Part shown: positions 1 to 15,753 of the stretch, one piece after another
Layout: each line of letters opens with the position of its first letter
Numbering within the stretch: position 1 is the first letter of the stretch
Assembly (NCBI GenBank): GCA_002050435.1
Contig: MWYV01000044.1
Location: 1-64,000 of the forward strand
Source: Chitinophagales bacterium 33-2
Lineage (GTDB): Bacteria; Bacteroidota; Bacteroidia; Chitinophagales; Chitinophagaceae
Direction: 5' to 3'
Length of the DNA: 64,000 nt
The notes under the pieces: generated by a model
The model's database searches: none
Told to the model about the DNA's origin: nothing
The model's input: the letters and a program-made list of their open reading frames with translations, nothing else
Made by a program: the position numbers and the translations under genes

Positions 1-122
1 ACATAATGATATCCAAATTCCGTTTTTACGAGTCCGGATGTGCCTCTTGGGTTGGTGAATATAAAATCATTAAAAGGCGGAACCATTCTTCCTGTTGTTA
101 CGCCCTCATAAACGCCACCTTT
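1..122. repeat. Left arm of terminal foldback inverted repeat
   Basis: Base-by-base comparison shows that positions 1-122 are the reverse complement of 866-987 with no gaps and one mismatch (position 32). The match stops abruptly at 123, inside an open reading frame. This arm lies at the very edge of the window and encodes only nonsense N-terminal residues for the isomerase that follows. It is most simply a chimeric join (amplification or assembly artefact at a contig end), less likely a true inverted duplication. Confidence 0.9.
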
Positions 123-1807
123 ACCTGGAAGCATTGGAAAAAGACAGGCTCCAGGAAAAATATGTTAGCCTGTTAATGAACACCATTCATTTTCCAAAAT
201 GGTTTCTTGAAAAAAGAAATATTGATAATAGCCTCATGGCCAGTGCAGCCTTTGTAAGTGTACCTTATGCTTCCATTGCTGACAGCACGATCAAAATCAG
301 CGATAAGGAAATAGAGGAGTACATCAATAACCACAAAAAGGATTTCGAGCAAAAAGATGAAACCCGCAACATTGAATTTGTTACGTTCAGCGCAGCGCCA
401 AGTGCGGCCGACTCCATGGCTACCAGGGAAATGCTTACTGGCCTGAAACCACAATTCGATACCATATCTGGAAATAACCTCGAAAACTTTTTAGCAAGGA
501 ACAGTACACTTCCTTTTTATAATGGTTATGTTAACCGTAATCAGATCCAGCAAGTTAATAAAGATTCTATTTTAAGTCAGCCCGTGGGCGTTATTTATGG
601 TCCTTACATGGACCCTGCACAACAGGGCCAGCAAGGTGCGTATGTAATGTCAAAGATCATCAGCGCAAGGCCAGTTCCGGATACAGTGAAAGTGCGCCAC
701 GTACTTGTTGCTACATTTCAGATGACCCAGACAGGCGAAAGAATGCCCGTGAGGTCTGAGCAGGATGCGTCTGCGCTAGCGGACAGCATCATGAGCGCGC
801 ATAAGGCCGGTGCCAGTTTTGATACATTGGTTGCCAGACATTCGGATGATCCGGGAAGTAAAGAGAAAGGTGGCGTTTATGAGGGCGTAACAACAGGAAG
901 AATGGTTCCGCCTTTTAATGATTTTATATTCACCAACCCAAGAGGCACATCCGGAATCGTAAAAACGGAATTTGGATATCATTATGTTGAGATCCTGGAA
1001 CAAAAAGGATCTTCACAGGGCTTTAAAGTTGCGTACCTGGCCAAACCAATACAGACGAGCCAGGAAACTGATAACATAGCACAAAATGCCGCTTCTGCCT
1101 TTGCTGGCGAAAGCAGGGATTATAAATCTTTCAATGATAATTTTGAAAAGAACCTGAAAACAAAAGGAATGAGTAAATTCCCTGCAACAGATATTAGGCC
1201 ACTTGATTTTTCAATTACTGGTCTTGAAGGCGCTTCCAGGAAACTGGTGAAAGATGTTTTTACAAGTGATAAAGGCGATGTGATCGGACCGGAAAGAGTG
1301 GGCGAGGTTTATGTTGTTGCTGTTGTTACAGAAGTGAACAAAGCCGGACTTGCCAGTGTTGCCCGTGTACGCCCGATGATCGAACCGATTCTAAGGAATA
1401 AGAAAAAGGCTGAGCAGATCATAAAACAACTTGGAAAGGTAAATTCTCTTGAAGAAGTAGCCTCTAAATTCAATGTGCAGGTACAGCCGATGGACAGCCT
1501 TCGGTTTACAGGTGGAAACAACATGCTTGCTTATGAGCCAAAAGTTATTGGTGCTGTTTTCAATCCTGAAAATAAGGGAAAAACTTCCCAGCCAATTGCC
1601 GGACAGGCAGGCGTTTATGTGGTGAGGGTAAATAACATTACCACCACACCGGTAGAAGCTGCAAGTATTGAAGAACAAAGGAATAACCTTGTTATGCAAA
1701 CACGCCAGGGTATTCAAAGCCAGATGCAATACGGTAGCGGGAATCCCTATATTGATGTATTAAAAAGGAGCGCAGACATCAGTGATAACAGACCGAACTT
1801 TTATTAA
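123..1807 (+). CDS. SurA/PpiD-type peptidylprolyl isomerase, 5'-truncated
   Basis: This is the C-terminal part of a periplasmic peptidylprolyl cis-trans isomerase that would help fold outer membrane proteins. A PpiC/parvulin rotamase domain lies at about 680-1005, with the hallmark HVLVA start, the HSDDPGSKEKGG stretch and the FGYHYV end. A second, more degenerate isomerase-like region follows towards the C terminus. An ATG at 95 opens the frame, but its first nine codons lie in the inverted foldback copy, so that start is artificial. Native sequence begins at about 123 and the signal peptide and N-terminal chaperone domain are missing. Related Bacteroidota proteins are about 700 residues long. 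The gene ends cleanly at TAA and is followed by a terminator. The family call is firm, the exact subfamily less so. Confidence 0.85.
866..987. repeat. Right (native) arm of the foldback inverted repeat
   Basis: This segment is the source copy of the inverted sequence at 1-122. It lies inside the rotamase domain and is in frame with its surroundings, so it is the native copy. The arms are separated by 743 bases. Confidence 0.9.
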
Positions 1808-1894: not shown

Positions 1895-2401
1895 ATGAGT
1901 GAAGCGATCATTAATAAAGTAGCCAACAGCGGTTTAATTACTATTGATCTGGAAAAATATGCTCCAAATAATGAGGTTGCCGTTTTTGATCTGAAGGATC
2001 ATTTATTCATGGGAATGATCCTAAAAGAAAAAGAGTACAGGGAAGGATTAAAAAATTTTGACTGGCAACCCTTTAAAGAAAAGAACGCTGCTATTATCTG
2101 CAGTGTTGATGCCATTATTCCTGTATGGGCTTATATGCTGGCCGCAAGTTATTTACAGGAAGTTGCCCATGAAGTGTATGTCGGCTCCGTGGAAGAAATG
2201 GGGAAGCACATTTTTTTAAAAAACCTTTCCGCGATAGACATCAATAATTACGCAGATCAAAGGATCGTGGTAAAGGGATGTGGGGACAGGCAGATTGAAA
2301 GTTTTGCTTATGCCGAAATTACGCGGCTGTTAAAACCTGTAGCCAAAAGCATCATGTATGGTGAACCCTGCAGCACGGTTCCTGTATATAAAAAGAAATA
2401 G
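1895..2401 (+). CDS. DUF2480 family protein
   Basis: This 168-residue soluble protein belongs to the Bacteroidota-specific DUF2480 family, whose function is unknown. It matches the family pattern at full length: N-terminal KVANSGLITIDLE, the DLKDHLFMGMILKEKEYR block, the SVDAIIPVWAYML segment and the C-terminal GCGD region. There is no signal peptide, so it should be cytoplasmic. The ATG at 1895 is set by the promoter-like element directly upstream. The gene lies downstream of a terminator, so it starts a new unit, and a lipoprotein gene follows after one base, suggesting co-transcription. Confidence 0.85.
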   Translation: MSEAIINKVANSGLITIDLEKYAPNNEVAVFDLKDHLFMGMILKEKEYREGLKNFDWQPFKEKNAAIICSVDAIIPVWAYMLAASYLQEVAHEVYVGSVEEMGKHIFLKNLSAIDINNYADQRIVVKGCGDRQIESFAYAEITRLLKPVAKSIMYGEPCSTVPVYKKK

Positions 2402-14722: not shown

Positions 14723-15753
14723 GGGTCTTCTTCATAGCTCAGCTTTTTAATGTAAAGCTCCTGCACCACAACAATAATGATCACCATCAATGGCGTTGCC
14801 AGCAACAACCCCCACCCACCTGTAAGCACACCCATAAACAACTGCGCAATGATGATCAGGGCCGGCGGCACTTTGATCATTTTTTTCTGAATCTGTGGCG
14901 TGATGAGACTACTCTCCAGCATCTGAACCAGGATATACAATCCAGCCACTATGAGTGCCGTTGCGGGACCCTGTAAAAAACCGATCATGACAGCCGGGAT
15001 CATGGCAATGAGCGGCCCCAGGTTCGGAATGAAATTTAAAAGCCCTGCGCTCAGGGCGAGTACCAGCCACATCGGCATTCCCATAATGATCAGCCCAATG
15101 GCCGTTAGAATAAAAACAACCAGCATTGCAAAGAGCTGTCCCTTGAGCCAACGCTTCATTGAGTAGCCTACTTTCTGTACCACTTCCCGGGCCTCTGGTT
15201 TTTTACGCGGAGGAAAAAGTTTCAGGAAACCCTGGGTATATTGTTTTGGTCCAACCGTAAAAAATATGGCAATAAATAAAACAATATATACATCACCAAG
15301 TATCCCAAAACTACTGCGGAAAAATGACTGCGCCACCGTCATCAGGCGTTTGCCATTATCCTCATCCTCAATTTTTTCAAGAATGCTTCTTCCAAACGAA
15401 GAATTATTGAGCGAAGCCTTTACTTTTTCAATTGCAGGAGGAATGGTTTCCCTTATCTGCGCCATTTGCTGCTGAATACTGTTGCCGGCAAGATAAAAAA
15501 AGCCAAAGAGCAATAAAAGCGAACCGATTACAGATATGGACAGTGCTGCCCCATTCGGCATTTTTGTATGTTTTTCAATAATGTTCCCCAGGCCGCGGAA
15601 ATACATAGCAACCAGGGTGCCTGCCAGCAGTAACAACAAAACACTGAAAACCTCCTTCAGTACCCATAATAACAGGATCACCAGGGCGGTAGTACGAATT
15701 ACGTACAGCACTTTTTTTCTGAACAACTTCATTTCATCTTCCGATTCAGGCAT
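14716..15753 (-). CDS. AI-2E family transporter (UPF0118/YhhT type)
   Basis: This 345-residue inner membrane protein has about seven to eight membrane segments arranged as in the AI-2E/TqsA family, with two N-terminal helices, a soluble region around residues 80-150 and the conserved LNFIPNLGPLIAMIPA segment. The C-terminal GGWGLLLATPLMV is also typical. Some family members export autoinducer-2 and others are Na+/H+ antiporters, so the substrate is open. It is transcribed away from the amidase gene at 15872. A later ATG (MKLFRKK) is an alternative start eight codons in. Confidence 0.85.
   Translation of the reverse strand: MPESEDEMKLFRKKVLYVIRTTALVILLLWVLKEVFSVLLLLLAGTLVAMYFRGLGNIIEKHTKMPNGAALSISVIGSLLLLFGFFYLAGNSIQQQMAQIRETIPPAIEKVKASLNNSSFGRSILEKIEDEDNGKRLMTVAQSFFRSSFGILGDVYIVLFIAIFFTVGPKQYTQGFLKLFPPRKKPEAREVVQKVGYSMKRWLKGQLFAMLVVFILTAIGLIIMGMPMWLVLALSAGLLNFIPNLGPLIAMIPAVMIGFLQGPATALIVAGLYILVQMLESSLITPQIQKKMIKVPPALIIIAQLFMGVLTGGWGLLLATPLMVIIIVVVQELYIKKLSYEEDPQ

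Follow-up and report, generated by a model that had tools for sequence, protein, structure and literature searches.

A terminal foldback gives a split peptidyl-prolyl isomerase gene a false N terminus in a draft Chitinophagales genome

At the left end of the window, the whole 64,000-nt stretch of Chitinophagales bacterium 33-2 DNA analysed here, lies an open reading frame (95-1807) encoding a peptidyl-prolyl isomerase with rotamase domains recognizable by Pfam, followed by a DUF2480 gene (Table 1). The window is G000:C71:1-64000, and its first base is also the first base of contig C71 (92,393 bases), one of 76 contigs in a draft (G000) of 3,013,322 bases that is 90.18% complete. The isomerase frame runs out of one arm of an inverted repeat: bases 1-122 are the reverse complement of bases 866-987 over 122 nt, 99% complementary with one mismatch and no gaps, and the two arms enclose a loop of 743 nt. 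The sole mismatch pairs window position 32 (G) with the complement of 956, and the pairing ends sharply at 122/866, where base 123 is A and the complement of base 865 is C. With E = 1.9e-58 (blastn, set of 152 contig ends), the match is far above chance, and neither arm matched anything but the other when the whole draft was searched. The sequence-only reading had described just this foldback, placed its left arm at the window edge and noted that the match stops abruptly inside a gene. All of this was confirmed, down to the single mismatch and the gapless alignment; window and contig share this edge, and the abrupt stop at 122/866 falls within the isomerase gene. An inverted, near-identical copy beginning at a contig's first base is what a technical foldback chimera should leave.

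Table 1. Features at the isomerase locus (window coordinates unless a contig is given) and terminal foldbacks in the draft
Feature	Position	Strand	Arm (nt)	Loop (nt)	Basis or remark
False left arm, inverted copy of 866-987	1..122	-			Repeat search; contig starts at 1; gene homology from codon 122-124
Spurious in-frame N terminus (TTG start) of mechanical ORF 95-1807	95..121	+			ORF listing; homology absent before codon 122
Probable chimeric junction	122..123	.			Arm match stops and protein homology begins here
SurA/PpiD-like peptidyl-prolyl isomerase, genuine 3' part, 561 codons plus stop	122..1807	+			Pfam Rotamase
Source of the copy, genuine coding sequence in the isomerase gene, rotamase domain	866..987	+			In frame with full-length relatives
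DUF2480 gene, usually found next downstream of the isomerase gene	1895..2401	+			Pfam PF10652; used for synteny test
Isomerase N-terminal piece, first 148 codons	G000:C65:8296-8739				SurA_N_2 match; runs to the contig's last base
Foldback	C14 left		97	1154
Foldback	C21 left		43/44	171
Foldback	C42 left		119/121	456
Foldback	C71 left		122	743
Foldback	C74 left, 1-68 / 1966-2033		68	1897	Whole-contig view; 35-nt match within 2 kb
Foldback	C36 right		129	459
Foldback	C41 right		65	579
Foldback	C68 right		208	405

We compared the isomerase with its counterparts in 11 loci fetched from the same genus. Homology to these relatives begins at window codon 122-124 and none was found before codon 122, while the same-genus proteins are ~165 residues longer at the N terminus than the piece on C71. 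Together, these two observations indicate that the arm occupies the place of the 5' part of the isomerase gene. The annotated N terminus should be discarded: bases 1-121 are false and the gene fragment starts at 122. More generally, the stretch 1-122 belongs neither to the isomerase gene nor to the true locus. When 17 same-genus genomes were searched (own genome excluded), 14 gave a match over essentially the whole isomerase query, one (G004) gave a match in two pieces, and two (G003 and G011) gave weak rotamase-domain matches only. The isomerase of G004 is also split, between C13:157899-158774 (query residues 1-297) and C21:4-792 (residues 300-561) of that genome, and the second piece starts at base 4 of its contig.

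The missing 5' part is present elsewhere in the draft. Using the N-terminal portion of a relative's protein as query, we obtained matches in the same genome at C65:8296-8736 (C65 is 8739 bases long) and at C71:119-238. The C65 piece comprises 148 residues and matches SurA_N_2 over profile positions 1-144 of 145. Measured from the last residue encoded by C65 to the first residue encoded from C71:122, the gap between the two pieces is 17-19 residues, or ~51-57 bases, in 11/11 same-genus loci (individually 17, 17, 18, 18, 18, 19, 18, 18, 19, 19 and 19). The last 301 bases of C65 have no other match in the genome, and the end of this contig therefore looks genuine. Judged by the same-genus relatives, ~17-19 isomerase codons would thus lie unassembled between C65 and C71, which are probably neighbours. 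The junction on C71, in other words, cuts a gene whose true continuation lies on another contig, again as expected of a technical foldback chimera. The sequence-only reading had suspected a false N terminus and had suggested a related genome as a guide to the true 5' end of the gene; the comparison bears out the suspicion and places the 5' part on C65, ending where that contig ends.

Two observations temper this assignment. First, 21 of 23 named, mostly more distant loci match both pieces, with a gap that by extrapolation ranges from 13 to 32 residues (18 in eight loci, 23 in L195 and 27-32 in six), and the remaining two, L206 and L207, match no C65 piece; the variable gap slightly lowers our confidence in the chimera reading. 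Second, one congener (G007) has two full-length copies of the isomerase, such that the C65 piece could in principle derive from a paralogue. A second C-terminal part was not found in the genome, which argues against a paralogue without proving the point in a draft of this completeness. The only other matches of the 561-residue query in its own genome were the false arm and two weak rotamase-domain matches, on C33 and C27.

Gene order was examined as well. A Peptidase S46 gene precedes the isomerase on C65, and DUF2480 follows it on C71. The synteny set consisted of 34 loci, namely the 11 from the genus search and the 23 named ones, with at least one genome counted twice (L012 and L191, whose contigs are equally long). 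The C71 part of the isomerase was matched in all 34, the C65 part in 32, DUF2480 in 24 and the S46 peptidase in a single locus. That locus, L195 from the MAG Chitinophagaceae bacterium ES-bin-252, has all three genes on a single contig, first S46 peptidase, then isomerase, then DUF2480, and thereby bridges C65 and C71. The S46 gene was not found upstream of the isomerase in the other 33 loci, where the DNA compared covered ~1 kb for the 11 same-genus loci and ~2.4-2.5 kb for most of the 23 named ones, and the synteny on the C65 side hence rests on one relative. The isomerase gene regions of L195, L194 and L010 contain no inverted repeat of ≥20 nt. Similarly, none of the 11 same-genus loci has a self-inverted match (E ≤ 1) inside the isomerase gene; short ones exist outside it.

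If the tail on C71 were technical in origin, similar tails might be expected at other contig ends. We compared all 152 contig ends of the draft (2 kb each) with themselves, counting separate arms of ≥40 nt and ≥95% identity that start at the contig's first bases. At least 8 of the 152 ends carry such a terminal foldback, with arms of 43-208 nt and loops of 171-1897 (Table 1); the count is a lower bound, C74 alone having been examined beyond 2 kb from its end. The left end of C18 was left out of the count, being an imperfect palindrome (88.6%) with overlapping arms, as were direct repeats at several contig ends. By comparison, 462 kb of interior sequence (window positions 2001-64000, L004 and nineteen 20-kb stretches) contained no inverted repeat of ≥40 nt and ≥95% identity with separate arms and a loop of <3 kb. 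The nearest interior repeat was 45 nt long at 88.9%. Within the 2-kb end stretches themselves, no separate-arm repeat of the same size and identity was found away from the end. Thus, foldbacks recur at contig ends and were not found in the 462 kb of interior, which is the distribution a technical chimera would produce. The first bases of C14, C21, C42 and C74 on the left, and of C36, C41 and C68 on the right, are not to be trusted.

Several of these ends also split genes. An illustrative example is lpxC, which is cut at the left end of C14 (profile positions 1-99) and continues at C47:107 (positions 123-267). Another is treZ: the part cut at the right end of C68 covers positions 397-541, while C54 carries positions 3-349 up to base 15342 of its 15,346. 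In the TreZ search, nine weaker matches were taken as other amylase-family genes; the TreZ match itself extends ~20 bases into the false arm of C68, with one stop. With the isomerase included, the remaining part of the gene sits at or near another contig's end in all three foldback ends traced by gene (C71, C14 and C68). The broken frame on C42 belongs to the corrinoid protein family. In addition, C47:1-115 matches C14:1734-1848 at 98%, and the order of lpxC across C14 and C47 suggests that C47:1-115 is an inverted copy of sequence lying across that break. The same match geometry links C31 left to C34 right and C61 left to C76 left; there, the likeness is one of geometry only.

We consider it highly probable, at roughly 95%, that the foldback on C71 arose as a technical inverted chimera and was retained where a short-read contig ends. 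The sequence-only reading had offered an inverted chimera or a misassembled contig end as the explanation, and the 5' part on C65, the bridge of 17-19 residues seen in 11 loci and the seven further foldback ends lend it support. As for how such a tail might arise, amplification or library preparation would have allowed a free 3' end near position ~123 to re-anneal within the locus, to single-stranded DNA close by, and extension along 866-987 would then join ~123 to an inverted copy. The direction of the strand switch is uninformative here, since a single event in double-stranded DNA yields both orders. Genuine coverage presumably fails in the short stretch between C65 and C71 (~51-57 bases by the same-genus relatives), which would leave the assembler with the chimeric tail as its final extension of the contig. 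Exact 127-base matches, found between the ends of C2 and C26 and of C5 and C51 and as direct repeats within the ends of C18, C52 and C63, bear on the type of data. A de Bruijn assembler with a word length of 127 leaves exact 127-base matches at contig ends, and these matches therefore probably indicate short-read data.

One might instead blame the assembler alone: with no chimeric read involved, its graph walk would have reversed onto the opposite strand. The finding of foldbacks at contig ends only would suit such an error. A turn of this kind in a de Bruijn graph requires that a word be shared where the walk reverses. The arm, however, has no match at the end of C65, and the residues encoded by the arm before codon 122 (in a frame open from base 74) are unlike the 17-19 residues of the relatives. 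A long shared word is thus unlikely; a short one is possible, given that the gap is unassembled. A further point against such an error is the mismatch private to the arm (32/956). We therefore regard a pure assembler error as improbable and chimeric reads as the likely makers of the tail.

Still less probable is that the chromosome of some or all cells carries a genuine inverted duplication, or a template-switch mutation, by which the isomerase gene is broken. In favour of such an event are the near identity of the arms and the internal consistency of the sequence. Yet the arm reaches exactly as far as the contig end, and a real duplication should leave no separate true 5' part in the same genome, whereas the N-terminal piece sits at the end of C65, a short gap away by the relatives. 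Foldbacks at seven other contig ends, with none in 462 kb of interior, speak against it too. We give equally little credence to the variant in which a subpopulation really carries the isomerase-breaking inverted duplication and the other contig breaks mark the same real foldback rearrangement. The location of the repeat at a contig end might also suggest a linear replicon or mobile element with a functional terminal hairpin or inverted terminal repeat. That reading has a negligible chance of being correct, as the arms lie within a peptidyl-prolyl isomerase gene that has ordinary neighbours and continues on C65, and the arm is found nowhere else in the draft. We take the foldback at 1-122 to be a sequencing artefact and not a real feature of the genome.

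The technical inverted chimera belongs to a known class of short-range inverted chimeras. Judged by extracts of the papers concerned, the closest precedent is the multiple displacement amplification (MDA) of a single E. coli cell, in which >85% of chimeras were inverted joins with an intervening deletion, the joined segments tended to be <10 kb apart and >70% of the junctions carried 2-21 complementary bases (Lasken & Stockwell 2007, PMC1855051). Distance fits that account, the loops at our eight ends spanning 171-1897; in contrast, only one or two shared junction bases can be deduced here, and the chimera survives as a contig end rather than only in a read. Base 122 (T) is compatible with the arm and also with TAC, the first homologous codon, which implies one, perhaps two, shared bases, a figure read from codons with the true sequence left of 122 unassembled. 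So small an overlap would be at the low end for MDA chimeras and counts against our preferred explanation.

Two further artefacts are comparable in part, again going by extracts. Inverted fragment ends have been described in Illumina libraries from amplified DNA (PMC4060946), where the ends of short-read fragments are likewise inverted copies of each other; that work concerns C. elegans at the level of reads, whereas ours are terminal foldbacks of bacterial contigs. In the long-read foldback artefacts of PMC12870357, reads fold onto their own inverted copy, also for a technical cause; those come from long-read platforms, while our draft, with its 127-base overlaps at contig ends, looks like a short-read de Bruijn assembly. 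Among the matches listed, the titles and opening abstract lines revealed no report dealing with foldbacks at the ends of bacterial contigs built from short reads; palindromic MDA reads in a tardigrade mitogenome assembly (PMC13265396) came closest.

The significance of these findings is one of data hygiene, not biology. Inverted tails of this type, present at ≥8/152 contig ends of this draft, lead to genes with false termini and can be mistaken for gene inversions or inverted terminal repeats. They would be detected by a simple contig-end test for terminal foldbacks.

Repeats of other kinds were also seen at contig ends. The left end of C10 (1-1960) is filled by diverged direct repeats, in a long array whose period looks like ~65 bases. 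Related repeats are common to the ends of C6, C7, C18, C27, C39, C40, C51, C54, C56, C62 and others, where they are ≥95% identical over 40-365 bases, and may have broken the assembly there.
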